Positions 2,840-34,567 of a DNA stretch of 35,627 nt are shown here, piece after piece. Origin of the DNA: Gemmataceae bacterium (GTDB taxonomy: Bacteria > Planctomycetota > Planctomycetia > Gemmatales > Gemmataceae); NCBI GenBank assembly GCA_025055215.1, contig JANWYO010000109.1:1-35627 (forward strand), in the 5' to 3' direction. The position numbers and the translations under genes were made by a program. The notes beneath the pieces were generated by a model. That model made no database searches. It saw nothing but the letters and a program-made list of their open reading frames with translations, and had not been told where the DNA came from. Each line of letters starts with the position of its first letter. Positions within the stretch are counted from its first letter, which is position 1.

Positions 2840-3762
2840 CGCCTCTCTCCCAATTTCAGATATTCGATCGCCTCGGGGCTGGCCCATTTGAGCAAGCCGC
2901 GGCTGTTGGGAGTGCCGAGAATCTCTGCGGGCGCCGAGGTCGTGATCTCGATGCCGGGATGGTCCTGCCGAAGCTTTTCGACATCGGCCGGCAGCACCAG
3001 TGAGCCTTTGAAGGAGATGGCTTGCAACTGTCCCTTGAGAGGCTTCAAGTGTTTCAGGCCGCCGTCATAGGTGAGGAAGGTCTCGTGCAGGTTCAGCCGT
3101 TTCAGCTTGGGCATGGTGGCGAAGGTCGGCAGGCATTTCTCCGTCACCCGATCGGGGCGGGCTTGCGAACTGATGGTGAATTCCTCCAGGTTCGGGTGTC
3201 TGGCCAAGTGAGCGATGCCGGCATCGGTGACGAAGCTGTGACAGATGTCGATGCTCCGCAAAGACGCGATGCCGGCCAAAGCGGCCATACCACGATCAGT
3301 AAAAGCATGACCAATGCGGACCTGTTCCAGCTTGGAATGTTTCAAGGCGCCGAAACCGGAGCCATCATAAAGTTGCCGATCCACGTTCGAGGCGGGCGTG
3401 TTATGGTCGATGCGGATGCCACGCAATTCCGGCAGGGCTGCCAGCCAGGTCAAGGCGTCGTTGCAGAGCAAAGGTCCGTTCCCGCGCAGATCCGTGACCC
3501 GTCCTGACGCATCGTAGATCACCAGCAGTGTGTGTCGCGGGTTGTCCTTGGAGGAAAAGCGAACGCCCGTTTCGCCCGGGCGTAACGGCCAACCCTTGGG
3601 CTGGCTGTCTGCGGGGGCATCCAGCTTTTCCCGCTCCACGATGCGCAGGATGACCTTCAGGTCGTCTGGGTGGAGGGGCAGCTCGGTTTGGGGCCCCTCG
3701 GCAGCGGCGACGAAGAAAGCGCCGACTACGCTGCCAACACGGAGGCTACGGAGCAGTTTCAA
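2836..3762 (-). CDS. Exported leucine-rich-repeat-like protein (TTG start)
   Basis: A 308-residue protein, probably exported, with irregular leucine-rich repeats of the kind common in planctomycetes. No ATG in this frame fits: the open frame runs back into the DUF1552 gene. TTG at 3762 gives a clean signal peptide (MKLLRSLRVG, then hydrophobic to about residue 21) and has AGAGGA 6 nt upstream, inside the 13-bp gap after the DUF1552 stop. Repeats with the pattern L..L.I....T/D.G...L cover about residues 110-260. The C-terminus (ASPEAIEYLKLGERR) is not repeat-like. The stop overlaps the sulfatase start. No catalytic motif is seen; protein or glycan binding at the surface is a guess. Confidence 0.75.
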   Translation of the reverse strand: MKLLRSLRVGSVVGAFFVAAAEGPQTELPLHPDDLKVILRIVEREKLDAPADSQPKGWPLRPGETGVRFSSKDNPRHTLLVIYDASGRVTDLRGNGPLLCNDALTWLAALPELRGIRIDHNTPASNVDRQLYDGSGFGALKHSKLEQVRIGHAFTDRGMAALAGIASLRSIDICHSFVTDAGIAHLARHPNLEEFTISSQARPDRVTEKCLPTFATMPKLKRLNLHETFLTYDGGLKHLKPLKGQLQAISFKGSLVLPADVEKLRQDHPGIEITTSAPAEILGTPNSRGLLKWASPEAIEYLKLGERR

Positions 3763-8444: not shown

Positions 8445-8508
8445 CGCCGCGGGGTTGCACCTGTCCGTTTGGGTGCACCGACGCTTCACCCCGGCGGGCC
8501 GATTGCTC

Positions 8509-8640
8509 GTTTCGCGCTCGGTGAGCGCGCCGCGGCGCGAAACGATGAATCTTCCGGCGGACCCGGCGAGCGCCTGACGTCTTGGCGCCAGCGCGAACCG
8601 GTCAATCCTTTGACGCCGGTGCACCCTTGCTCCGCCGAAA
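8509..8640. repeat. Hairpin element, copy A (downstream side of dabBA)
   Basis: An intergenic block of about 132 bp that aligns, with small gaps, to 13101-13232 in the same orientation. It opens with a hairpin: 11-bp perfect arms at 8507-8517 and 8535-8545 (TCGTTTCGCGC and its complement). Shared stretches after the hairpin include AATCT, TGGCGC, GCG.GAACCG.TC.ATCC and TGCACCC. It has no convincing open frame. It may be a dispersed non-coding repeat, a small RNA or a processed RNA boundary. Similarity is judged by eye at roughly 70 percent. Confidence 0.6.
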
Positions 8641-8652
8641 CCTGGAGCGACA

Positions 8653-8671
8653 CCGCCGCGCAGCGCGGCGG
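8653..8671. terminator. Perfect GC hairpin downstream of dabA
   Basis: Perfect 8-bp arms (CCGCCGCG and CGCGGCGG) around a 3-nt loop, about 50 bp past the dabA stop on the minus strand. There is no U-run after it, so it may only mark or stabilise the 3' end of the transcript. Confidence 0.4.
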
Positions 8672-8721
8672 CTAGTGCCGGTGTGTCGGATCACCAATAG
8701 GGACGCGGCCAGGCGACCGTC

Positions 8722-11274
8722 TCACGCCGCGTGGCGGCAGGGCAACTCTTCCGCCCAGCGGCCATCGTCGGCGAGGCGGTAGACCTGATCGTGTTCCAGG
8801 GCCAGAAGCGTCAGCCAGCCGCCGCAGGCCAGCTGGCGAATGGCCGGTTGACGGCCGAGGACCGCGCTGACCAGGGATCGAGGCGCCTCCACGAGGACTT
8901 GCAGGCGCAGGGGGGGATGCTGGTAGACTTGGCCGTCGTGAACGGATTGCCACGGTAGACCGATCCGCAGGTCGCCGCCGTTGCCTTCCCACACTCCCAG
9001 CAGGCCAACGACGTTGTGCAAGACCTTATTGCCGCTGCCGAAAGCAGCGTTATCAACCGTGGAAGCATAGTATTGCAGGTTGATCCAACTGGCGACCACG
9101 ACCGGCGCGGTGAGGATGAGCTCAAGAGTACGCCCATCCCCGTCGTCGCGATAGTCGTAGGAGTGCAAGAATGCTCGACCATCGAGGGCAAGTCCGTAGG
9201 TCCGAGAGCGGGGGGCAGCGATGAAGGCAGCGTTGCCCGCCAAACCCCACTCTGGGCGGACTTCGGACCAATCGCGACCGCGGCGAAACGCCAGCCGGGC
9301 GGAGGACGGGCCGTGCCGGCCATGCCGGCCGGCCCGCTCAGCGCGGGCGCGCTCACCGGCTCGGCGTGCCCAGTCGCGCAGTTCGCCGAAGACGCCGACG
9401 TGACTGGTCGGCAACAGGTCAAGGTCGGTGAAGCGGATTTCGTCGGTCGTGGTGTTGTGGACCGCTGGCAGAAACCATGTGTCCGACGGCAGGTCGAGGC
9501 CACGTTGCCGCAAGCCGTCGCGCACCGCGGGATCGTTCAGCAGAGCGGCGGCCAGCCGTGCGTTGGCCTCGCCCGAGTGCCCGCCGCATGCTCCACAATT
9601 CAGCCCGGCACGGTAGGGATTGTTCACGGTTTCGCTTTCATGGCCGCAGAAGACGACCACCGGGGCCAATCCTGAGGTAAGGCCAACTTGGCGCAGGAGC
9701 CGATCGGCCAGGTCGATGCGCGTCCCCAGTTCCAACTGTTCGCCGTCGGTTGTTGCCCACGCCGGTTTCAGCCGGTGGCGGTGCTGGCGGGCCACGCCAT
9801 CGAATCGCGGGTCGCGCCGACCCCAGAGCCGGAGGCTGTCGGCCAGGAGGTTCAGGAGGAAGGTCGGGCCCATCGTTTCCACGAAGGAAAAGCACGACGC
9901 GGCTGATGTCTGGAACGATTTCCAGACGCGGCGGAACAGGCGCCGGCCGCGACGCCGCTGTAAGGCCCGCATCCGCGCCGCAGGATGGACGTCTCTCAGT
10001 TCCTCGGCAACGCGGAACGCCGGCTGCAACAAGGCCGGGCATTGGGCGGAACCAGCCGTCTCTCCAAATGGCACCCACTCAAAGGGCAGGCCGAAAAAGC
10101 CGGCAAAACCAAAGGTTTCGATCGCCTCGCTGATCGTCTCCAGATGTCGGCGAATGATCTCGGACCGGGTGTCGATGCAGAAAACCATCTGCACCTTTTT
10201 CCGGACCGCTGACCGTGCCGGCCCCGTCGGGCGGGCCACGAGCCTGCCTAGGAGGCGGCGTCGGTAGGCAATTTCGCTGGCCACCTGCAAGACATACCGC
10301 GCCCAGGTGGCGTCGCTGATCGGGGCGATGTCCGCCACGCTCCCCGCTCGGAGCGCCACCACGACCCGAGCCGAGGCTTGGCCGCCGGCAACCAGCCCGG
10401 CGTCATAAGCCAGCCGGATGGCCAGCAACCCCACGAGATCGTCTTCGTCGGCGCTCGACGGTCCTGCCTCCTGGCTGCGGCGTCGCAGGTACGAGCCCCA
10501 GCCCGAAACCGTCCCGAGTTCGCACAATAGCAGGTTGCGCCATCCGTCGAGCGGGACTTGCAAGGATTCGGTCAACAAGAGATGGATTGCCGCACGCGGC
10601 GATTCCGGCAAGCGAGCCACGAAATTGCAGAACCGGCGGACACCGAGTTTTTCCAACCGTCGATCGACACGCGCGATCCGGCACCAGGCAGTGTACAGCG
10701 GCAAGCCCCGCCACGGACTGGGCCAAGCCGCCTGCCCCAGGTCGAAGTGGGCCGCGCAATGGCGGGAAACCTCGTGCCTGATGGCATGGGACCAGTCGGT
10801 GCCGGTTTCCTGGTCAATCAGCTCGGCCACCGTCCAACAGCGCCGGTCCGCAGAGCCTCGGTCCGCACCGGCACCGCCGGTGCGGGCCCACCAGAGGATG
10901 CGATCCGCCGTCAGGGTCGCACGGTCGTGCAAGCCCGCCTGCCGGCATTCATGCAGAGCGGCGCCAATGTCCTCGCGGCTTACCTCACCCCGATCGAGTA
11001 GCTCGTGAAAATACTCCCAGGGCATCAGGGTCTCGACGTCCCGAAGGTGGCGCAGCTGCTGGCGCGCCTCCAGGAAATGACGCCGCGTCATGCCCAGCAA
11101 GGGATTGACCGCCACAAAGTCCGCCAGCGGCCAAAGCGGAGCGATGCTGTCGGTCACCTCGGTCAGGAGCGCGTCGAGCGCGGCGTAGCGACCGGTGTCG
11201 GCCTTGGCCAAGCCGACGACCTCCGCCCCTCGCTCGGCGGCCTCAGGCCGCTGCCCGGCACTCGATCTCACCAT
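8722..11274 (-). CDS. dabA: DabA: inorganic carbon uptake subunit (DUF2309, beta-carbonic-anhydrase-like)
   Basis: An 850-residue member of the DUF2309 family, the soluble half of the DAB bicarbonate/CO2 accumulation complex known from Halothiobacillus. Zinc-site residues are in place: C366 and D368 (in FCIDTRSE), H545 (in CGHESETV) and C560 (in GLNCGACGG). The 15-residue H-to-C spacing matches the pattern I recall for the characterised protein. The family turns CO2 into bicarbonate one-way at the cytoplasmic face, energised through DabB. Start ATG 11274 gives the expected length and overlaps the end of dabB by 32 bp; longer frames only extend further into dabB. It forms an operon with dabB, order dabB-dabA. 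No RuBisCO or carboxysome gene is nearby, so the bicarbonate probably feeds carboxylases of central or lipid metabolism (inference). Confidence 0.93.
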   Translation of the reverse strand: MVRSSAGQRPEAAERGAEVVGLAKADTGRYAALDALLTEVTDSIAPLWPLADFVAVNPLLGMTRRHFLEARQQLRHLRDVETLMPWEYFHELLDRGEVSREDIGAALHECRQAGLHDRATLTADRILWWARTGGAGADRGSADRRCWTVAELIDQETGTDWSHAIRHEVSRHCAAHFDLGQAAWPSPWRGLPLYTAWCRIARVDRRLEKLGVRRFCNFVARLPESPRAAIHLLLTESLQVPLDGWRNLLLCELGTVSGWGSYLRRRSQEAGPSSADEDDLVGLLAIRLAYDAGLVAGGQASARVVVALRAGSVADIAPISDATWARYVLQVASEIAYRRRLLGRLVARPTGPARSAVRKKVQMVFCIDTRSEIIRRHLETISEAIETFGFAGFFGLPFEWVPFGETAGSAQCPALLQPAFRVAEELRDVHPAARMRALQRRRGRRLFRRVWKSFQTSAASCFSFVETMGPTFLLNLLADSLRLWGRRDPRFDGVARQHRHRLKPAWATTDGEQLELGTRIDLADRLLRQVGLTSGLAPVVVFCGHESETVNNPYRAGLNCGACGGHSGEANARLAAALLNDPAVRDGLRQRGLDLPSDTWFLPAVHNTTTDEIRFTDLDLLPTSHVGVFGELRDWARRAGERARAERAGRHGRHGPSSARLAFRRGRDWSEVRPEWGLAGNAAFIAAPRSRTYGLALDGRAFLHSYDYRDDGDGRTLELILTAPVVVASWINLQYYASTVDNAAFGSGNKVLHNVVGLLGVWEGNGGDLRIGLPWQSVHDGQVYQHPPLRLQVLVEAPRSLVSAVLGRQPAIRQLACGGWLTLLALEHDQVYRLADDGRWAEELPCRHAA

Positions 11275-12880
11275 GTTCTTGGTCTCTCTGGGAAAGGAGC
11301 GCGATGGGCGCGGTTTGCGGTTGACTCCACAAGCGTTCGACGATGCGGCGAGCGACGACGTCGGCATAGAAGCCGTTGGCCACGTGCACGTACAAAGAGG
11401 CCAACACGCCTCCACGGCCCCAGTGGGGCAGCATCAGCTGCACGACCAACAACCCGAGAAAGCCGGCGAACAAGCCCGACGCGAGGAAGGGGCCCACGAC
11501 AGGCGTCAGGCGGGCAGGTGGGAGGGACTCGCTGATGAACCGGTCCAGGTGCTGCCCAACGGCATGGTACGCCAGGCTGACTGCCGCCGCGGCCACCAGG
11601 CCGGCGGCGGCCACGGCGCCGTTGGCCGAGCGGAACGCCTGCCACAGCAGGTGGGTCAAGGCCAACACCAGGACCAAGCCGAGGACCCATGCCCCGGAAG
11701 AGGCGTGATCGGCAGGGCCGCACAGCCAGGTTGCGGCTGCCCAACATCCCAAGGCCGCCAAAGCCGCCCCCGCCAGGGCGAGCAGGTCGGCGCTGAAGCG
11801 GGGCTCCGGCTTGGGGCCGAGGCGTCGGCCGGCGGCGGTCTCCAGCACGCTGCCCGAATTCAGGAATGCATGCGCCTTGTACAACGAGTGGCCGACAACA
11901 TGGAGCAGCGCCGCCGAGAACGCTCCCAGGCCGCACTGAATCATCATGAAGCCCATCTGGGCCACTGTCGAGTACGCCAAAGCGCGTTTGATGCTGGTCT
12001 GCGGCAGCATCACCACCGCCCCCAGCCAAGCCGTCACGGCGCCACCCAGGGCCAACGCCTGCATGGCCGGTGACGAAAGTCCGATGAGCCAAGCCAGGCG
12101 AATGACCAGAAAACCACCAGCATTGATGATTCCCGCATGCATCAGGGCCGATACCGGCGTCGGCGTTTCCATCGTGTCGGGTAACCAGCTGTGCCAAGGA
12201 ACCTGGGCCGACTGAGTCATCGCCGTCAGCACGTACAGTGCCGCCAGCAGGTGCGTCAACCCGGTCCACGCTCCCGTCGCCATCCTCTCACCGGCCCGGG
12301 CTACCAACTCATCGATGGCAAGGGTGCCGAATTCCAGGTAGGTCACCGCCACTGCTAACACGAGGAAGACGTTTCCAATCCGACTGATGACAAGTTTTTG
12401 ACGGGCGGCCCACACGGCCTCGGGACGGTCGTGGTAATGCATCAACAACCGATGAAGCCCCAGGTTGGTGAGCATCCAGGCCACCGTCAAGACGACCAGA
12501 TTGCCGGCCAGGATGAGGAGCAGGACGGCCCCGACCGTAAAGGTCGTCCAGCGGAGAAAGCGTCCCTGAGTGGGATCGCCGTCGAGGTAACGGATGGCGA
12601 ACCGTGTGACGATCACGCCGATGAAGCCGACCAGCAGCATCATGACGGCGGCGAGGTTGTCCGCGTACAGCAGCGGCATGCCGCCGAGCGGAAGGCGGAC
12701 CAGGCCGGGGCCAGAGACGGCGACCAGTCCAAAGCCCGCCGACGCCAAGCCGAAGGCCGCTCCCATCAAGCCGACGACTCGCGCCCGCCCGCGGCCGTCC
12801 GGTCTGGGGGCCAGGAGCCAGCCGCCGGCCAGTAACAACGCCGGTGGCGCCACGATTACCAGCGTCAGCACCATTACCAT
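11243..12880 (-). CDS. dabB: DabB: NuoL-like membrane subunit of the DAB inorganic carbon transporter
   Basis: A 545-residue polytopic membrane protein of the complex I NuoL/MrpA (proton-conducting antiporter) family. Characteristic segments are PWHSWLPDTMETPTPVSALMH with the following GIINAGGF, and SIKRALAYSTVAQMGFM with its conserved lysine; these belong to the ion-translocating helices. On its own this could be called NADH dehydrogenase subunit 5, but direct overlap with dabA identifies it as DabB, which couples ion flow to carbon uptake. Start ATG 12880 has GGAG 6 nt upstream; a second ATG at 12874 is nearly as good. It is shorter than typical NuoL, as DabB proteins are. The stop lies inside the dabA start region, implying translational coupling. 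Confidence 0.9.
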   Translation of the reverse strand: MVMVLTLVIVAPPALLLAGGWLLAPRPDGRGRARVVGLMGAAFGLASAGFGLVAVSGPGLVRLPLGGMPLLYADNLAAVMMLLVGFIGVIVTRFAIRYLDGDPTQGRFLRWTTFTVGAVLLLILAGNLVVLTVAWMLTNLGLHRLLMHYHDRPEAVWAARQKLVISRIGNVFLVLAVAVTYLEFGTLAIDELVARAGERMATGAWTGLTHLLAALYVLTAMTQSAQVPWHSWLPDTMETPTPVSALMHAGIINAGGFLVIRLAWLIGLSSPAMQALALGGAVTAWLGAVVMLPQTSIKRALAYSTVAQMGFMMIQCGLGAFSAALLHVVGHSLYKAHAFLNSGSVLETAAGRRLGPKPEPRFSADLLALAGAALAALGCWAAATWLCGPADHASSGAWVLGLVLVLALTHLLWQAFRSANGAVAAAGLVAAAAVSLAYHAVGQHLDRFISESLPPARLTPVVGPFLASGLFAGFLGLLVVQLMLPHWGRGGVLASLYVHVANGFYADVVARRIVERLWSQPQTAPIALLSQRDQEHGEIECRAAA

Positions 12881-12918
12881 CTTCCTCTCCGCCGCTCCCC
12901 CGGCGCTCGGGGGGACGC

Positions 12919-12960
12919 TGTTTAGTACACGAAGCAAATTTCGTCAATGCGGATTCGTCA
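12919..12960 (-). promoter_or_regulatory. Candidate dabBA promoter with direct repeats
   Basis: On the minus strand TTGACG (12942-12947) is separated by 17 bp from TAAACA (12919-12924), putting the start about 30 nt before dabB. On the plus strand TTCGTCA occurs twice, at 12940-12946 and 12954-12960, a 14-bp period that overlaps the -35 box and could be a regulator site. Bases 12881-13413 hold no gene; besides this they contain hairpin element B. Confidence 0.45.
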
Positions 12961-13100
12961 GTTTTCTATCGTGTGTGTGGGACCGGCGCTTGAGAAAACC
13001 TCAGTCACGGCCCGCCGGTGGCCGGGTGCGTCTGTCGTTTAGGACGGGGTTGCAGGCCCCACGCGGCGTTTTTTCCCAGCCCCCGCCGCGCTGAGTCACT

Positions 13101-13232
13101 GTTTCGCGCTCGCTGGGCGCGCAGCGAGCGCGAAACGACAAATCTCCTGGATCCCGCGCACGGGTTTCTCCTCCTGGCGCGCGCGGGAACCGATCGATCC
13201 CTCACTGCAGTTGCACCCTCGCCGCGTCGAAA
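13101..13232. repeat. Hairpin element, copy B (between dabB and the winged-helix gene)
   Basis: The second copy of the element at 8509-8640, same orientation and nearly equal length. Its hairpin is stronger: perfect 15-bp arms at 13101-13115 and 13122-13136 around a 6-nt loop. Differences from copy A within the stem are partly compensated, which suggests that structure rather than exact sequence is kept. No open frame of interest overlaps it. Confidence 0.6.
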
Positions 13233-13400
13233 TCCGCAGGCACACCGGCACACCCGGTTGGCAGATTCGGAATTGCAGGATTGCTCCCGTGCGGTTAGGA
13301 TGCCTCGGCGCTGCCGGCGCACGGTTGACGCGAAACGGAGGGTTGGAGACCCTCTGCCGAGGTTGCGGCCCCTGACTTGGTCGGCCGATGGGGCAATCCC

Positions 13401-13901: not shown

Positions 13902-15008
13902 TTACGGCACGGTTCGTGCAGCCGGCCCAATGTACCGGGCCCGCGGCCGAATCAATCGATTGTTCGCCAGCTGCTCCATGATGTGAGCGCACCAACCGGA
14001 AATCCGGCTGATGACGAAGATGGGCGTGTACAGTTCGGGCTCCAGGCCGAGGACGTGGTACAGCCGGCCGGCGGGCCAATCGAGGTTGGGATAGAGGTTT
14101 TTTTCCTGGGCCATCAGCCGCTCGATGATCTCCGCGGTTTCCTCCCACCGGGTCTGTCCGGCGGCGGCGGCCAGCCGGGCGACGTGCTCCTTGAGGATGC
14201 CGGCGCGGACGTCGCCGGTCTTGTAGACACGGTGTCCAAAGCCCATGATGCGCTCCTTGCGCGCCAGGGCGGCGCGAAGCCACGCCTCGGCCGTCTCCGG
14301 ACCACCGGCGGCCCGCAGGAGGTCCATGACCTTTTCGTTCGCCCCACCATGCAGCCGACCTTTGAGAGCCCCAATGGCCGCCACCACGCCCGAGTGAAGG
14401 TCGGACTCTGTCGACACCACGACACGGGCGGTGAAGGTGGAAGCGTTGAACTCATGCTCGGCGTAGAGGATCAGGGAAACGTCAAACGCCCGAACGTGCT
14501 CCGGCGGGGCCTCGACCCCGCGGAGCATCCACAAGAAATTAGCCGCCTTGGACAATTCCTGCCGTGGCGGCACCAGCGGTAAGCCGCGGCTGAGGCGGTA
14601 TTGGGCGGCAATGGCTGTCGGAATTTGCGCCAGCAGTCGCTCCGCCTTGCGTCGGTTGGCCGCCGGACTGTTGTCCGCCACGTCGGGGTCGAAGTGCGCC
14701 ACAATGCTCACCGCCGACCGCAGCGCGTCCATCGGCGTGACGTCACGCGGCAAGGCACGAAGCAGGTCGCGGAGCGGCTCCGGGAGGCGGCGTGCGGCCG
14801 CCAGGCGGTTATGGAAGTCGTCGCGCTGGGCCGCCGTTGGCAAGTCCCCATGGAGCAAGAGATACGCTACGTCCTCGAAGCAGCACTTCGCCACCAGCTC
14901 GCCCACCGGATAGCCGCGATAGCGCAGACCGCCTTCCACCGTCGAAATCGCCGTTTCCCCGGCAATCACCCCTTCCAGCCCGGGAGAATAAATCTCGGCA
15001 GTGCTCAT
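13902..15008 (-). CDS. prpC: Citrate synthase family enzyme, probable 2-methylcitrate synthase
   Basis: A 368-residue citrate synthase of the short type II-like class that includes 2-methylcitrate synthases. Catalytic residues are present: H220 (RLHGGANE), H259 (MGFGHRVYK) and D310 (PNLDW); H185 lies in AEHEFNAST. The C-terminus retains TPIFVISRISGWCAHIMEQ. Start ATG 15008 has AAGGAG 6 nt upstream; the frame is open further but without support. It condenses oxaloacetate with acetyl-CoA or propionyl-CoA. Sequence by eye cannot decide between the two; the methylisocitrate lyase gene just upstream on the same strand favours the methylcitrate cycle of propionate oxidation. If the genome has no other citrate synthase, it may serve both roles. 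Confidence 0.85.
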   Translation of the reverse strand: MSTAEIYSPGLEGVIAGETAISTVEGGLRYRGYPVGELVAKCCFEDVAYLLLHGDLPTAAQRDDFHNRLAAARRLPEPLRDLLRALPRDVTPMDALRSAVSIVAHFDPDVADNSPAANRRKAERLLAQIPTAIAAQYRLSRGLPLVPPRQELSKAANFLWMLRGVEAPPEHVRAFDVSLILYAEHEFNASTFTARVVVSTESDLHSGVVAAIGALKGRLHGGANEKVMDLLRAAGGPETAEAWLRAALARKERIMGFGHRVYKTGDVRAGILKEHVARLAAAAGQTRWEETAEIIERLMAQEKNLYPNLDWPAGRLYHVLGLEPELYTPIFVISRISGWCAHIMEQLANNRLIRPRARYIGPAARTVP

Positions 15009-15131
15009 CCGACGCTCCTTGGTGTCCGATGCAAACTCCTGTTCCTCCCATTTCGGGAGAGCAGCCGCGCGACCCATCCCAGCCCGGCTTTCGTCAATGG
15101 CAGCCGACCGGGAACACAAGCCAGGCCGAGG

Positions 15132-15155
15132 CCCGGCCCAGGGGCCGAGGCCGGG
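15132..15155 (-). terminator. Hairpin directly after prpB
   Basis: Perfect 7-bp arms CCCGGCC (15132-15138) and GGCCGGG (15149-15155) begin one base past the prpB stop. No U-run follows. It may attenuate transcription into prpC or protect the upstream mRNA. The rest of the 148-bp gap shows nothing else clear. Confidence 0.4.
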
Positions 15156-15156
15156 T

Positions 15157-16041
15157 TCACGAGGGTTTCCGAAGTTCGAAGTAAGCGCGATCGCGTTCCT
15201 CGTAGGCAGTGTAGCCGAGCAAGTCGTACAACTCGGCGCGGGACAACATCTGCGGCAACCGGTCGCGCTGGTGGCCCTTGGTGAGCAGTTCGTGTAAGGT
15301 CTGTCGCGCGGCGTACACGGCGCTGCGGAAGGCCGTCAGGGGGTAAAGCACCATGCGGTAGCCGAGCCCGGCCAGATCCGCAAAGTCGAGATTGGGACTG
15401 CGACCGAACTCGGTCATGTTGGCCAACAGCGGCGCCGCCACGGCTTGGGCGAAGGCGGCGAACTCGTCCCGGCTTTCCAAGGCCTCGGGAAAAATCGCGT
15501 CGGCCCCTGCCTCCCGGTACAGCCGCGCCCTGGATACCGCCGCGTCGAAGCCCTCGACCCCGCGTGCATCGGTGCGGGCCACGATGACGAAATCGGGATC
15601 GCGGCGGGCGGCCACCGCCGCGCGAATCTTCGCCGCCATCACTTCCGCAGCTACCAGGCTCTTGCCGGACAGGTGGCCACATCGCTTCGGAAGTTGCTGG
15701 TCCTCCAGGTGGATGCCGGCAGCGCCCGCGGCTTCCAATAGACGCACCGTACGCTCCACATTCAAGGCCTCGCCGAAGCCCGTATCGGCGTCACATAACA
15801 GGGGCAGCGACGTCGCCTGGGAGATTCGGCCGGCTTCGTCCACGAACTCGGTGAGAGTCAGCAAGCCGACGTCCGGCAGGCCGGCGGCGGCCGACAAGGC
15901 CGCGCCGGACAAGTAGACGGCGGCGAACCCCAATCTTTCCGCCATGCGGGCCACCAACGCATTAAAAACGCCGGGCACCATGATGGGCCCGGCCTCCCAA
16001 GCCGCTCGCAGGCGGCGCCCGGGACTCGGCGCGACCGGCAT
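15157..16041 (-). CDS. prpB: Methylisocitrate lyase (isocitrate lyase/PEP mutase family)
   Basis: A 294-residue member of the isocitrate lyase/PEP mutase superfamily, the usual size for PrpB. Visible signatures are YLSGAALSAA (43-52), the metal-binding LCDADTGFG (82-90) with D84 and D86, HLEDQ (111-115) and the catalytic loop PKRCGHLSGK (118-127) with C121. This loop is what distinguishes lyases such as PrpB from PEP mutases. The enzyme splits 2-methylisocitrate into succinate and pyruvate. The next gene downstream is a citrate/methylcitrate synthase, supporting the assignment. prpD and acnD, needed for the middle of the cycle, are not in the window. The ribosome site before ATG 16041 is weak; the upstream gene ends only 12 bp away. 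Confidence 0.87.
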   Translation of the reverse strand: MPVAPSPGRRLRAAWEAGPIMVPGVFNALVARMAERLGFAAVYLSGAALSAAAGLPDVGLLTLTEFVDEAGRISQATSLPLLCDADTGFGEALNVERTVRLLEAAGAAGIHLEDQQLPKRCGHLSGKSLVAAEVMAAKIRAAVAARRDPDFVIVARTDARGVEGFDAAVSRARLYREAGADAIFPEALESRDEFAAFAQAVAAPLLANMTEFGRSPNLDFADLAGLGYRMVLYPLTAFRSAVYAARQTLHELLTKGHQRDRLPQMLSRAELYDLLGYTAYEERDRAYFELRKPS

Positions 16042-16053
16042 GACAAGGTCTCG

Positions 16054-17028
16054 TCAGTGCTCCAGTATGATGCGGTAAACTGGCTTGGGGCCGACGACAA
16101 TCTCCGCTTTGACGGTAGAGCCAAGCGGCAGGGCGAACGGCGCTGCTCCGATCAGTGCCCGCGCGCGAAACTCCCGCTCCTCGTCTGTGCCGTCGTCAGC
16201 GGGTCTCCCCCACGGGTCCAGCCGCTGGACGCGCCCCTCAACAATGCCGTGGATCCGGTGATTGAACACATTGGAGAAAATCCGCACCGTCTGCCCCGGT
16301 CGCACGTCACCCCAGTGCCGCTCCTCCACCGCCAGATCAGCCACCAAGTCGAGCGGCTGCCGGCTGCTGGGGTCGATCGGCACCACGGTAGCGATCAAGT
16401 CACCGGGATCCACGGCTTGCCCGGAGCGGACAGGCACTTCGACGCACATCCAGGCCTCCCGCTGGTTGGGAACGTGCAGGACCGCTCGGCCCAGGAGTTC
16501 CCGCAATCGGTCCCGCTCTCGCACCAGCGATACCTTGGTCGTTCCCTGGCTTTCCAGCTCACGAATCTGGTCCTCGACGGCCCCTAATCGGTGTTGCAAC
16601 TCGTCGGAGCGAATCCAGCCGATGACTTGGCCTGGCCAGAGTTCGTCGCCCGGCTCCAAGCGGTGGAAACGAGTGTCGCGAACCGCCAAACGCTGCCCGT
16701 CGTCGTCCAGTTGGTTGTGCCAGACGTTTCGCCACGCCGCCGCATGGGGTTCGATGAGGCCGTTCCCATGCCCGTCGAGCCGCACGCGCAGGCTCTCGCC
16801 AACCGGTCGCTCGATGGTCCCCTCAAACCAGCCGAGTTCGATGAGACCGGCCAACGGCGCGCGGAGTTCGCATAAGTCTTGGGCGCTGATGACCCCGTGA
16901 GCGGGAACCACCGCCTCCAGGCTGACGCCGAACAGCAGCACCATCAGTCCCCCGACGATCAGGGCGAGGCTGATGGCGAAGACCCTTAGGTGGTAGGTCG
17001 CTTTCGGCGGAACCCAGGAAGAGGTCAT
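16054..17028 (-). CDS. HlyD-type periplasmic adaptor (membrane fusion) protein, orphan
   Basis: A 324-residue protein with one N-terminal transmembrane helix (about residues 15-37) and a large extracytoplasmic part. The section around residues 40-60 (VVPAHGVISAQDLCELRAPLAGLI) resembles the biotinyl-lipoyl-like half motif of membrane fusion proteins. A short coiled coil lies near residues 145-180, and the beta-barrel-like PGQTVRIFSNVFNHRIHG segment is at about 240-257. Such proteins bridge an inner-membrane exporter and an outer-membrane channel. No ABC, peptidase or outer-membrane partner is encoded nearby; it sits between an aldolase and prpB with gaps of about 24 and 12 bp. The coiled coil is shorter than in typical secretion adaptors. 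Its partner and cargo are unknown. Confidence 0.75.
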   Translation of the reverse strand: MTSSWVPPKATYHLRVFAISLALIVGGLMVLLFGVSLEAVVPAHGVISAQDLCELRAPLAGLIELGWFEGTIERPVGESLRVRLDGHGNGLIEPHAAAWRNVWHNQLDDDGQRLAVRDTRFHRLEPGDELWPGQVIGWIRSDELQHRLGAVEDQIRELESQGTTKVSLVRERDRLRELLGRAVLHVPNQREAWMCVEVPVRSGQAVDPGDLIATVVPIDPSSRQPLDLVADLAVEERHWGDVRPGQTVRIFSNVFNHRIHGIVEGRVQRLDPWGRPADDGTDEEREFRARALIGAAPFALPLGSTVKAEIVVGPKPVYRIILEH

Positions 17029-17052
17029 GAGCGTGCTTGCCCTCGGCGGGTT

Positions 17053-17934
17053 CTACAACAAGCCGGCTTGCTGCAAGTAGCCTCGCATTTTCTGGAGTTT
17101 GTCCGGGGGGAGTGGGCCCACCGGCGAGCGGCACGGCCCGAGGGAACGCCCGAGCAGTTGCAGCGCCGCCTTGACACCACCCGGGGCCGTCCCCAACGAC
17201 AGGCTCAGGCGCACGGGGTTGAGTTTTCGTTGGGCTTGAAGGGAGGCAGCCAAGTCACCCCGCTGGAAGGCCTCGTAGATTTCCACGGCCAAGGCCGGGA
17301 CGATGTTGGCCGTGGCTGGCACCGCCCCTTTGGCCCCCAGTTGCAAGGCCGAAAAAATCAGGGTGTCCCGCCCCATCAGCACCGCAAAGTGCTCCGGCAC
17401 CAGCCGGATGCACTCCATGGTGTTCTGCAGGTCGCCGCTGGAATCTTTGATGGCGACGATGTTGGGCACCTCCGCCAAGCGGGCCACCGTCTCCGGCTCG
17501 ATCCGGACGCCCCCGCAATGAAACGGGTTGCTGTAAAGGATCAGCGGCAGCGCCGTCTGCTCCGCGAGGCGGCGATAATGATCCACCAACTCGCTTTGCG
17601 TCGGCTGGATGAAGTACGGGGTGATGACCGAGATGCCGTCCACCCCCTCGCGCTCGGCCATTTTCGTCAGGCGGATGGCCTCGCGGGTCGTTTCCGCTCC
17701 GGTACCCGCAAAGACCGGGACGCGCTTGTTGACGTGGGCCACCGCCGTGGCGATGACCTCCTGCTTTTCGCGCTCGTCCAGGGCGTAGCACTCGCTGTTC
17801 GTCCCGAGCACGAAGACACCATGTACCCCCGCCGCGATCAAGTGGTCGAGGAACCACTTCAACCTCGGGATGTCGAGGTCCTCGTTGGCCTGCATCGGCG
17901 TCGCCACCGGCGGAATGATGCCCCGAATCTGCAT
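17053..17934 (-). CDS. DapA/N-acetylneuraminate lyase family aldolase
   Basis: A 293-residue class I aldolase of the dihydrodipicolinate synthase family. The Schiff-base lysine is K163 (VAIKDSSGD) and the proton-relay tyrosine Y134 (ILYSNP). The substrate loop usually reading GTTGE is GTNSE here (44-48), and the arginine that follows the tyrosine motif in true DapA is missing (NPFHCGG). It is therefore probably not the lysine-pathway enzyme but an aldolase for a 2-keto acid. Beside glycolate oxidase genes, a 4-hydroxy-2-oxoglutarate or similar aldolase yielding pyruvate plus an aldehyde acid such as glyoxylate is possible (inference). I prefer ATG 17934 because GGAG sits 9 nt upstream; ATG 17943 is directly preceded by that GGAG, too close. 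Confidence 0.82.
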   Translation of the reverse strand: MQIRGIIPPVATPMQANEDLDIPRLKWFLDHLIAAGVHGVFVLGTNSECYALDEREKQEVIATAVAHVNKRVPVFAGTGAETTREAIRLTKMAEREGVDGISVITPYFIQPTQSELVDHYRRLAEQTALPLILYSNPFHCGGVRIEPETVARLAEVPNIVAIKDSSGDLQNTMECIRLVPEHFAVLMGRDTLIFSALQLGAKGAVPATANIVPALAVEIYEAFQRGDLAASLQAQRKLNPVRLSLSLGTAPGGVKAALQLLGRSLGPCRSPVGPLPPDKLQKMRGYLQQAGLL

Positions 17935-18033
17935 GACGCTCATCTCCGCAAAACACCGGCATGGCCCGATCGTCGCACCTTGAGGCGGGCAAGGGCCGAC
18001 GCCCGGACGGCCCTGCGAATACCGTTCGCGGCC

Positions 18034-19374
18034 CTACCAGGCTTCGCCGCTGTAACTGGCCCACAGCACATCAATGGGATGCGCGACCCGCACCTCCGGC
18101 CGGCACGGCCGGAGGTAGCGGCCGATTTGCAGGAGGCACCCCACGTTCGCGGTGAACACCGCCTCGGCCCCCGTCGCCAAGATGTGGCGCACTTTCCGCT
18201 CCCCCAGGCGTTGGGCCATCTCAGGTTGCGTTAGATTATAGCTGCCGGCAGCGCCACAACATATTTCTGACTCGTCGAGCGGCACAAGGGTAAGCTCGGG
18301 GACCCATTCGAGCAGCTGCCGCGGCTGGCTGCGGACCTGTTGGGCGTGGCAAAGGTGGCAGGGGTCGTGGTAGACCGCTCGCAGTTTGACGGGATGCGTC
18401 GGCCGCTGCGGTTTCAAGTCGACGAGGAACTCGCTGATGTCCCGAACCTTGCGGGCCAAGGCCCGACCCGCCGCGGCATGGGCCGTCGGCCCCAGGACGT
18501 GGGCGTAGTCCTTGAGCATGGCGCCACAACCAGCGGCGTTGACGATAATGGCGTCCACCGTCCGTTGGCCAAACACCGCACAATTGATCGCCGCGAAAGC
18601 GCGCGCCTTCACTTCCTCGGCGGCATGGTAGTGCAGTGCCCCGCAGCAGACCTGACCGCGGGGCACCCAGACATCGCAACCGAGACGTTGCAGCACCCGA
18701 GCGGTGTTCCAATTCGTTTCCGGAAAGAAGGCAGCGCCGGCGCAGCCGGTGAACAGGGCCACGACTTTCTGCTTCTTGCCGTGGGCGGGGAGGAACTCGG
18801 GAAGTCGGCCTCGGTAGCGCCGCCAGCGGGGCAGCATGTCGTACAGTTGGCGAAGGGGCGGGGGTAACCAGTCGAGCAGACCGCTTCTTTCCAGGAGCCG
18901 GTCGAGTCCGGTTCGTTGCAGTAAGCGGGCCGGGGCCAATGCCAGCCACAAGCGCTCCGCATAGGGTGTCACGTGAAACAGGGCCCACCGCTGAAGCCGA
19001 CTCAACCGATCGATTGGGCCAGGCTCGTTCCCCTGGGTCTTCTTCATGTACAGGCGGAACGGCTCGATCAGCCGGCCATAGCGAACTCCCGACGGACAGG
19101 CCGATTCGCACGCCCGGCAATCGAGACAGAGGTCGAGATGGCGGCGAACGTCGGCTTGGAGGTCGAGTCGGCCATCGGTCACGGCCCGCATAAGGTAGAT
19201 GCGGCCACGGGGGCTGTCCATTTCGGTGCCCAGTTCCACGTAGGTCGGGCACGCCGCGGTGCACAGCCCACAATGGACACAGTCGAGCAGCAGTTCGTAG
19301 TCGATGCCGGTGTTGCGCGGCGAGGGAGGAACAACCGGCAGGGAGGTGCGAGCAGGCTCGGCGATGGTGGCCAT
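18034..19374 (-). CDS. glcF: Glycolate oxidase iron-sulfur subunit
   Basis: A 446-residue GlcF-type protein. Two four-cysteine [4Fe-4S] motifs are present: C32-C35-C38-C42 (CVHCGLCTAACP) and C83-C86-C89-C93 (CLDCRACESACPSG). Two cysteine-rich CCG-type domains follow, recognisable by VCCGALHYHAAE and ICCGAAGSYN. The subunit passes electrons from the flavin subunits to the quinone pool. It is the third gene of glcD-glcE-glcF, 19 bp after glcE. The homologous lactate-utilisation proteins also carry CCG domains, but co-occurrence with both flavin subunits makes glycolate oxidase the best reading. Confidence 0.93.
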   Translation of the reverse strand: MATIAEPARTSLPVVPPSPRNTGIDYELLLDCVHCGLCTAACPTYVELGTEMDSPRGRIYLMRAVTDGRLDLQADVRRHLDLCLDCRACESACPSGVRYGRLIEPFRLYMKKTQGNEPGPIDRLSRLQRWALFHVTPYAERLWLALAPARLLQRTGLDRLLERSGLLDWLPPPLRQLYDMLPRWRRYRGRLPEFLPAHGKKQKVVALFTGCAGAAFFPETNWNTARVLQRLGCDVWVPRGQVCCGALHYHAAEEVKARAFAAINCAVFGQRTVDAIIVNAAGCGAMLKDYAHVLGPTAHAAAGRALARKVRDISEFLVDLKPQRPTHPVKLRAVYHDPCHLCHAQQVRSQPRQLLEWVPELTLVPLDESEICCGAAGSYNLTQPEMAQRLGERKVRHILATGAEAVFTANVGCLLQIGRYLRPCRPEVRVAHPIDVLWASYSGEAW

Positions 19375-19393
19375 GATGTCGCTGTTTGGGGTC

Positions 19394-20647
19394 TCAAATA
19401 CCGTCGAGGAAGCGCCCGGGATTGAATACGTGGTGCGGATCGAGCGCCTTTTTGACCTGCCGCATCAGCCAACCGTCGCCGCGCGGCGCCCCCCAGACCG
19501 GCAACGAGGCCTTCCACGACGGTGGGCAGCGGACCACGATCAGGTTGCCCCCCGCCCCGGTCGCCGCCGTCCGTAACATCGTTAGCATCGGCCCGGCCCG
19601 TTCGAGCGTCAAGTCGCCCACCACGTGGCCGATGACGATGCCGCTGCCAGCGTGTGCCTGGATCAGCGGCTGTTCCAGCAGGTCGTTCGTCTCTCGACAA
19701 AAGGCCGCCACGGCGTGCGGCAACAGGTTGGCCTTGAACGTCATGACGGGCTCCGGTCGAGCGACAAAGTCGACCAGGCCCTTCCAGACCGCGGTCCCGG
19801 CCGGGCCGTCGATCACCTCGGGGTGGTATTCTGGGCAGCAAGCCAACTCTTGCCCAAGCCGGTCTACCTGCCATCGGACCACCTCAGCATGGTCTTCAAA
19901 GCCAACCACGACCAGCCACGGAAGGCTCGGCTCGCTGCCCAGCACCAGCCGCGCCGCGGGAGCGTTCAGGACGTCCACGGCGATGGGCCGGCTGCGCGAG
20001 GCGTGCAGCTGGTCAAGGAGCGTTGGCAGCGTCGCCGTGCCACAGCCTACCAGGACCAGGGCCTGCTGCTCCGGCAAGGGGCGGACCTTGAACGTCACTT
20101 GGGTGATGATGCCCAAAGTGCCCAAGGCGCCGATGTGCAATTTGCACAGGTCGTAGCCGGCAACGTTCTTGACGACTCGGCCACCCGCTTTGGCCTCGTG
20201 CCCCTGGTCGTTGACGACAGTGATGCCGATGACGTAGTCGCGGAAGGTGCCGAATCCCAGGCGGCGCGGGCCGCTGGCGTTGACTGCCAGCGCCCCGCCA
20301 AGCGTCGCTTGCGCGGCGCAGGGCACGTCCACTGGCAGGCGTTGCCGCTCGCTGGCTAACAGCTGCTGCAAGGCGGCGACGCTCATTCCGGCCTGGACGG
20401 TGACGGTCATGTCGCGGGCCGGGTAGTCGATGATTTGGTTCAGGCGGCGCAGGTCCACCGCCCGGCCGGAACGCGTGGGGGGCCGACCGAGGTGGAGGAA
20501 CGTCCGGCCACCCAGCGGGTAGACAGCCTCTCCCTGGGTGGCCGCCTGCCGGACGATGTCGCCGAGTTCAGCGGCGCTGCCGACGGCCAGCAGGGGGATA
20601 GGGCCGAAGTCGTCGATGGTACAGGTCGGAACGTCCACGCGAGGCAC
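19394..20647 (-). CDS. glcE: Glycolate oxidase FAD-binding subunit GlcE (GTG start)
   Basis: A 417-residue FAD-binding type 4 (PCMH/VAO-like) protein. Visible elements are YPLGGRT near residue 43, PVDVPCAAQATLGGALAVNASGP (about 105-127), and RVVKNVAGYDLCKLHIGALGTLGIIT (about 157-182), characteristic of GlcE. The C-terminal half is less conserved and ends with the common FNPGRF motif. The initiation codon at 20647 is GTG with no obvious ribosome site; a second GTG three codons on is an alternative and no ATG fits better. It lies 45 bp after glcD and 19 bp before glcF and forms the heterotrimer with them. Confidence 0.92.
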   Translation of the reverse strand: MPRVDVPTCTIDDFGPIPLLAVGSAAELGDIVRQAATQGEAVYPLGGRTFLHLGRPPTRSGRAVDLRRLNQIIDYPARDMTVTVQAGMSVAALQQLLASERQRLPVDVPCAAQATLGGALAVNASGPRRLGFGTFRDYVIGITVVNDQGHEAKAGGRVVKNVAGYDLCKLHIGALGTLGIITQVTFKVRPLPEQQALVLVGCGTATLPTLLDQLHASRSRPIAVDVLNAPAARLVLGSEPSLPWLVVVGFEDHAEVVRWQVDRLGQELACCPEYHPEVIDGPAGTAVWKGLVDFVARPEPVMTFKANLLPHAVAAFCRETNDLLEQPLIQAHAGSGIVIGHVVGDLTLERAGPMLTMLRTAATGAGGNLIVVRCPPSWKASLPVWGAPRGDGWLMRQVKKALDPHHVFNPGRFLDGI

Positions 20648-20692
20648 CGGGGCGAATGTTTTTGAGGGCCACTGCCTCTGGTCCCATTACTA

Positions 20693-22120
20693 TTACAGGG
20701 CCGCTCGCCGACCGGCCTTGGTGGGTTCGATGCAGGCCCCGGCGGTGGGCAGCATTTTGGCGGGGCTACAGCGGTTGTCGGGGTTGAAGGCCGAGCGGAG
20801 TCGAGCCATCGTTGCCAGGTCTTCGGGGCTGAAGAGCCGAGGCATGAAGTTGATTTTTTCGACGCCGATGCCATGCTCGCCGGTCACGCTGCCGCCGCAG
20901 CGCAGGCATTCGTCGAGGATGTCGTGGCTGGCCTGCAACACCCGCTGCACTTGCTCGGGATCGCGCTCGTCGAACAAGAGGATGGGGTGGATGTTGCCGT
21001 CGCCGGCGTGGAAGACGTTGGCGATGCGGAGGCGGTACTTTTCGCCGATGCGCTGAATTTGCCGCAGCATGTGCGGCAATTGGGTGCGGGGGACGACGCC
21101 GTCTTGCGTGCAATAGCTAGGGGCCAGGCGGCCGACGGCCCCGAAGGCCTGCTTGCGGCACTTCCATAGCAGCAGGCGTTCGGCCTCGCTGCGGGCTTGG
21201 CGGACTTCCCGGGCCCGGTTCTTCCGCGCCATGGCGGCGATGCGCTGAGCGTCGGCGTCCAGGCCCGCCTCCAGGCCATCGACCTCCATGATAAGCACGG
21301 CCCCGGCATCGAGCGGAAAGCCGAAGTGGAAGGCTTCTTCGACCGCCTGAAGGATGAGCCGGTCGAGCATTTCCAGGGCGGCCGGGACGATACCGGCGCC
21401 GATGAGGTCACTGATGGTGTTGGTGGCATCGTCCACGGTTTCGAAGACGGCCAGCAACGTGCGGTAGGCATCAGGGTTGCGGGTGAGACGCACCCAGACT
21501 TTGGTCACGATCCCGAGCGTTCCCTCGGAGCCGACGATCACGCCCGTGAGGTCATAGCCTGGATTGTCTTCGGCGGGGCCGCCCGTCTGCACGACGCGGC
21601 CATCCGGGAGGACCAACTCCAATCCCAGGACGTGGTTGACGGTCACGCCGTACTTGAGGGTGTGAGGCCCGCCTGAATTGGTGGCCACATTGCCGCCGAT
21701 GGTACAGGCCCCTTGGCTGGATGGGTCTGGGGCGAAGTGGTAGCCGAGCGGTTGCAGGTGGCGGGTGAGCCAGAGGTTGACGACGCCGGGTTCAACGACG
21801 GCGTAGCGGTCGCGGGTGCTGACTTCGAGGATACGTTTCATCCGCGTCAGGGCAAGGACGACGCCGCCGCCGACGGGGAGGCAGCCACCGGCGAGGCTGG
21901 TGCCCGCGCCGCGCGGCAGAAAGGGCACCTTCAGGTCGTTGCACACCTCAACGATGCGGACGATCTGCTCGGTGGTGGTCGGGAAGACGACCACGTCGGG
22001 CTTGTTTTTCTCAATGGTGTAGCCGTCGCATTCGTAGACAAGGAGGTCGCTGGGCGTGGTGAGGATGGCGTCGGGGCCGACGATGTCGCGGAGGCGGTCG
22101 CTGAGGGCATTGGGGGCCAT
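20693..22120 (-). CDS. glcD: Glycolate oxidase catalytic FAD subunit GlcD
   Basis: A 475-residue FAD-linked oxidase. The FAD-binding pattern is clear: FLPRGAGTSLAGGCLP (67-82), APDPSSQGACTIGGNVATNSGGPHTLKYG in two parts (about 138-166) and IVGSEGTLGIVTKVW (about 194-208). The C-terminal catalytic domain has NVFHAGDGNIHPILLFD and GGSVTGEHGIGVEK, with the histidines typical of D-2-hydroxyacid dehydrogenases. It oxidises glycolate (or D-lactate) to glyoxylate. First gene of glcDEF, so glyoxylate is the likely product. Start ATG 22120 has no ribosome site, but a TATACT box ends only a few nt upstream, so the transcript may be leaderless. Confidence 0.95.
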   Translation of the reverse strand: MAPNALSDRLRDIVGPDAILTTPSDLLVYECDGYTIEKNKPDVVVFPTTTEQIVRIVEVCNDLKVPFLPRGAGTSLAGGCLPVGGGVVLALTRMKRILEVSTRDRYAVVEPGVVNLWLTRHLQPLGYHFAPDPSSQGACTIGGNVATNSGGPHTLKYGVTVNHVLGLELVLPDGRVVQTGGPAEDNPGYDLTGVIVGSEGTLGIVTKVWVRLTRNPDAYRTLLAVFETVDDATNTISDLIGAGIVPAALEMLDRLILQAVEEAFHFGFPLDAGAVLIMEVDGLEAGLDADAQRIAAMARKNRAREVRQARSEAERLLLWKCRKQAFGAVGRLAPSYCTQDGVVPRTQLPHMLRQIQRIGEKYRLRIANVFHAGDGNIHPILLFDERDPEQVQRVLQASHDILDECLRCGGSVTGEHGIGVEKINFMPRLFSPEDLATMARLRSAFNPDNRCSPAKMLPTAGACIEPTKAGRRAAL

Positions 22121-34408: not shown

Positions 34409-34567
34409 GGAAAAAGCCGAAGTCTCTCGGCAGGTCGGCCAGCTCGGCCGGGGGCGACGCGGCGGGGCAGAGCCAGCGCGCACCAATGAATCAGCTCGGC
34501 GGAGAGGAGGGAAGAACCGCCACCTGCAACGCTCGACCCCACCTTTGGCGTTCGAGGTTCGCCCGAG

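Follow-up and report, generated by a model that had tools for sequence, protein, structure and literature searches.

The closest described counterparts of the repeat considered here are short intergenic elements from other groups of bacteria. The Correia elements (NEMIS) of Neisseria are short and non-coding, with 24-bp terminal inverted repeats, a target duplication and size classes that come about through an internal segment, and RUP in pneumococcus and ERIC (or IRU) in enterobacteria are likewise intergenic repeats with terminal inverted repeats and a target duplication, presumed to be mobilised in trans (PMC2229807). Abundant intergenic palindromes of the REP/BIME type have been reported from Planctomycetes too, the single REP measuring 20–40 bp and carrying a GTAG or CGTC tag (PMC3733652). 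In the literature on MITEs or intergenic palindromes in planctomycetes we found no description of a family like the one below, which would give the Planctomycetes a MITE family that is well delimited and makes an 8-bp target duplication.

The window, by which we mean the whole stretch of DNA analysed (35,627 bp from a Gemmataceae bacterium), had been predicted from its sequence to contain two diverged copies of a hairpin element of about 132 bp on either side of the dabBA genes. We think it very probable (roughly 0.9) that this element is a new and probably extinct MITE family, and that the two copies in the window are among its decayed members. The features concerned are as follows.

8452–8655, plus strand: copy 1 of the proposed MITE, subfamily B-like (from the alignment of 29 copies, a profile match at 8488–8652 and the end positions)
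8507–8545, plus strand: central hairpin of copy 1, with 11-bp perfect arms
8722–11274, minus strand: dabA (PF10070), an ordinary gene between the copies
11243–12880, minus strand: dabB (proton antiporter-like subunit, PF00361/PF00662), an ordinary gene between the copies
13024–13247, plus strand: copy 2 of the proposed MITE, full length, subfamily B (81% identity to the consensus by BLAST, E = 2e-53; profile match at 13027–13244, 157.5 bits)
13101–13136, plus strand: central hairpin of copy 2, with 15-bp perfect arms
34471–34552, minus strand: third copy, partial, with the left part only (profile positions 8–88; profile match E = 2.9e-9, 34 bits)

The stretches 8509–8640 and 13101–13232 align from end to end in the same orientation with 72% identity (E = 1.6e-10 in a search of the whole genome), just as the original prediction had it, and we could equally confirm the perfect hairpin arms of 11 bp (8507–8517/8535–8545) and 15 bp (13101–13115/13122–13136), the common blocks GAACCG.TC.ATCC and TGCACCC, and, with a hexamer gene model, the non-coding nature of both stretches. 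Though the similarity itself stands, the extent given for it does not: the two stretches are the core of a longer repeat unit (about 8452–8655 and 13024–13247), and a wider-flank alignment of 29 loci shows homology reaching well past 132 bp on both sides. The idea that pairing persists although the two stems have different sequences proved wrong, as both copies have one stem sequence (GTTTCGCGCTCG / GCGCGAAAC), and the arms of copy 1 are shorter because the inner part of its stem has decayed, with loss of pairing there. Copy 1, whose left terminal inverted repeat has been shortened by a deletion, separates the 3′ end of dabA from gntR (5′ side), and copy 2 is found in the gap from which dabB and a small helix-turn-helix gene diverge. 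The partial copy, which the original prediction had missed, sits in the gap upstream of 34568.

The consensus unit starts with GGGTGCACCTATCGTTTGGGGCGGGG and ends with CCCCGCCGAAATCCAGAGGGACACCC. Read on the other strand this end is GGGTGTCCCTCTGGATTTCGGCGGGG, the counterpart of the start, and the unit is therefore bounded by imperfect inverted repeats of about 26 bp, present in the consensus of all three subfamilies that we could distinguish. The sequence for the element ends is GGGTGYMCCTMTSGWTTKSGGCGGGG, or in short GGGTG..CACCC. The subfamilies, defined from a profile of 81 copies and an alignment of complete copies, have consensus units of 206, 226 and 249 bp without coding signal, and they have their ends and spacer in common and vary in the number of palindromic modules (GATTCATCGTTTCGCGCTCGC and its reverse complement). 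Nested palindromes fill the space between the terminal repeats, and the consensus of each subfamily folds into strong hairpins with stems of about 20 bp. Two contigs of the same genome (C7, ending at 13313, and C15, ending at 3010) stop inside a copy of the element, near the centre of the hairpin (profile position 101), which suggests that its perfect palindromes break the assembly there. At another place (contig C283, 10760–10920) several copies of the inner motif GAGCGCGAACCGATCAATC form an array, both inverted and direct, outside a full element and without terminal repeats.

Further copies of the element were found throughout the genome, a 4.58-Mb draft made up of 347 contigs. Copy 1 as query gave 59 matches in it, and the 226-bp consensus at least 40 copies at E ≤ 1e-37 and 74–85% identity (the best 40 of 285 candidates). 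Allowing up to 3 mismatches, the inner motif GCGCGAACCGATCAATCC is present at 297 places and its reversed control at 2; as the motif recurs within some elements, the figure of 297 is not a count of copies. For an exhaustive sample we took 17 contigs nearly whole (730 kb, or 16% of the genome) and found 49 copies, against none in block-shuffled sequence. The density is approximately one copy per ~15 kb, and extrapolation gives about 300 copies genome-wide, with a slight upward bias owing to the fact that each sampled contig was known to hold at least one copy. At about 210 bp each, these account for about 1.4% of the genome, which would otherwise read as many unrelated hairpins, small RNAs and regulatory sites.

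All 49 sampled copies are intergenic, with genes called by the hexamer model. They are distributed over tandem (25 copies), convergent (3) and divergent (21) gaps holding 51.6, 9.3 and 34.6 kb of non-coding sequence, respectively, and this placement fits the available non-coding bases (chi-square about 1.3 with 2 degrees of freedom, calculated by hand), the few copies in convergent gaps being explained by the shortness of such gaps. Orientation is neutral, with 10 of the 25 copies in tandem gaps lying on the strand of the genes. Strand neutrality and mixed gap placement together argue against a role as dedicated terminator or as mRNA leader.

Evidence for transposition comes from the flanks. 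For 60 copies with both ends we compared all bases upstream of the left end with all bases downstream of the right end, and the only peak in the resulting identity matrix is the diagonal i+j=15, exactly eight positions long, where identity is 43–58% compared to about 28% elsewhere. These eight positions lie directly outside GGG...CCC. In this fixed register 20 of the 60 copies match at six or more of the eight positions, where 0.55 would be expected from shuffled partners, and perfect examples are found on contig 327, with GGCAGCTT on both sides, and on contig 18, with GAGCGCTC on both sides. The match is an 8-bp target-site duplication, and therefore the copies arrived by transposition; the element moved as a unit by a mechanism with an 8-bp stagger. 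Neither of the two main window copies has a clear duplication of its own, though only about a third of complete copies keep one. The suggestion of a mobile non-coding repeat in the original prediction was thus a good one, as the element forms a dispersed family of ~300 copies with terminal inverted repeats and the 8-bp duplication.

Copies are 80–81% identical to the consensus of their subfamily and 67–68% identical to one another, no pair exceeds 78%, and no near-identical copies were found. Such star-like divergence is as expected from one old burst followed by independent decay. Conservation is nearly flat along the element.

The element behaves as a MITE in the sense of the Correia, ERIC and RUP elements (PMC2229807), being short (below about 600 bp) and non-coding, with terminal inverted repeats, a target-site duplication of fixed length and a high, dispersed copy number. 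The likeness to Correia extends to the similar length of the terminal repeats and to the size classes, and that to RUP and ERIC to the intergenic location of the repeats. However, Correia and most bacterial MITEs have TA ends, as do ERIC and the 107-bp RUP, for which an IS630 partner has been proposed, whereas the present element has GGGTG..CACCC ends and an 8-bp duplication, and no partner was found for it; we therefore rejected a TA target duplication of the ERIC, Correia or RUP type. Compared to Correia by description and not by sequence, it is also longer, G+C-rich and built of nested palindromes.

An 8-bp target duplication and G-rich ends are features of certain insertion sequences, for instance of the IS256, IS1595 and ISL3 families. 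The present element is similar in both respects, but transposases of the IS256 type (PF00872), the IS1595 type (PF12762) and the ISL3 type (PF01610) were all absent from the genome. Searching for DDE_Tnp_1 (PF01609) gave three matches in the genome, two of them with internal stops, and none of the three is surrounded by matching ends. Altogether five transposase families were tried, and the draft genome yielded no autonomous element bounded by such ends. Likewise, we found no solo terminal repeats around a longer element in the sampled sequence and no similar sequence in a plasmid collection. The autonomous partner has probably been lost, or may belong to a transposase family other than these five, and the element family is presumably inactive at present.

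We envisage that the imperfect terminal inverted repeats of ~26 bp (GGGTG...) served as binding sites for a transposase supplied in trans, presumably of the DDE type, which would have cut out or copied the element and joined it to target DNA opened with a stagger of 8 bp, giving rise to the 8-bp duplication. One old burst would have carried it to roughly 300 intergenic sites, in three subfamilies that differ by inserted or duplicated palindromic modules, and later decay would have affected about 20% of each copy without visible selection on structure.

A MITE-derived element can also be put to work by its host, and copies upstream of genes or between divergent promoters might serve as insulators, protein-binding sites or hairpins that stop transcription. 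We consider this unlikely, though of the alternatives to a plain decayed MITE it fares best. A sample taken around search hits has 36 of its 78 copies in divergent gaps and a single one in a convergent gap. The strong preference for promoters and divergent gaps that this suggests is gone in the exhaustive contig sample, in which copies are placed in proportion to the non-coding DNA available. Conservation of the inner block GAGCGCGAACCGATCAATC is a little above that of the rest of the element (85–87% versus 80–81% in the contig sample, t about 1.6–2.5 per subfamily), an excess of ~5 points to be read in light of the facts that the motif itself served to find some of the copies and that conservation is in any case higher at CpG positions, which may account for it. 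Apart from this block the near-flat conservation argues against a function, as does the absence of excess compensatory change in the stems.

This last point bears more directly on whether the element is a structured RNA, the other possibility raised in the original prediction, be it a many-copy small RNA, a leader or something like a riboswitch. The strong hairpins that each subfamily consensus forms and the lack of coding signal are what such an RNA would have. However, pairing-restoring double changes in the stems of 74 copies are not above those in shuffled arms (7 versus 6.6, 5 versus 2.8 and 6 versus 3.5 for the three subfamilies), so that selection or correction acting on paired bases is unsupported; the arms of the hairpins decay independently. 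Rfam gave no matches at gathering thresholds and only irrelevant weak ones when thresholds were relaxed. Considering also the neutral orientation, the mixed gene contexts and the 8-bp target duplication, which ties both ends to one mobile unit, a structured RNA is highly improbable.

Equally improbable is a composite transposon or recombination cassette, in which the two copies, direct and 4.4 kb apart around the operon, would mobilise or excise dabBA. The longest run of identity between them is 12 bp, which is very short for homologous recombination, the 8-mer outside copy 1 on the left differs from the one outside copy 2 on the right, and G+C content is unchanged across dabBA. Close pairs are in any case frequent at a density of one copy per ~15 kb: in the contig sample 12 of 32 neighbouring pairs, including the one at dab, are within 5 kb, and 9 of these 12 are direct. 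The proposal that the dab module was inserted or could be excised thus finds no support; the bracketing is a chance neighbourhood, the element has no special link to dabBA, and an operon flanked by a pair of such hairpins should not for that reason be taken for a cassette. The closest DabA among relatives is only about 51% identical. A run of genes in one direction at 13902–22120 (minus strand), coding for a citrate synthase, a PEP-mutase/isocitrate-lyase-like protein, a DHDPS-like protein and an FAD/Fe-S oxidase, is possibly a small carboxylate-oxidation cluster adjoining dabBA.

A REP/BIME-type family moved by a RAYT (tyrosine) transposase can be dismissed as the least probable reading, since the likeness goes no further than the abundance of intergenic palindromes, while the unit is 206–249 bp long instead of 20–40 bp, terminal inverted repeats and the 8-bp duplication contradict it, there is no GTAG or CGTC tag at the foot of the stem, and a search of the genome for RAYT/Y1_Tnp (PF01797) gave 0 matches with positive controls.

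Returning to the MITE, its central hairpin is the one part with relatives elsewhere. In a search of 59 genomes besides its own, only G026 and G029 gave a match, solely in this hairpin. Of 398 genomes of the class only 4, all from one family, have the exact hairpin with 13-bp arms (none for a reversed control), and in the genome of the window it is found at three places, copy 2 being one of them. In the other three, related genera (genomes G003, G026 and G029) the hairpin stands alone and not within this element; in the window's own genome, 730 kb of sequence yielded no such stand-alone hairpin. It is conceivable, if rather doubtful, that a terminator-like stem-loop from gene ends was captured in this lineage by the transposable element, or was its source, in which case the ~300 copies would have carried a ready-made hairpin for stopping transcription into other intergenic gaps, and some of them may now insulate neighbouring genes. 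Alternatively, the stand-alone hairpins may be relics of older elements. A stem common to this family and to the gene-end hairpins of other genera offers a case in which the origin of a MITE's interior can be tested. The stand-alone hairpins (loci L061–L070, L085–L086 and L250–L257) have the stem GTTTCGCGCTCGC...GCGAGCGCGAAAC with GATTCATCG or CGCTTGCG as outer arm, and their position is as would be expected of terminators or 3′-end hairpins: 13 of the 14 cases read lie 7–46 nt behind a stop codon, and several fill convergent gaps.
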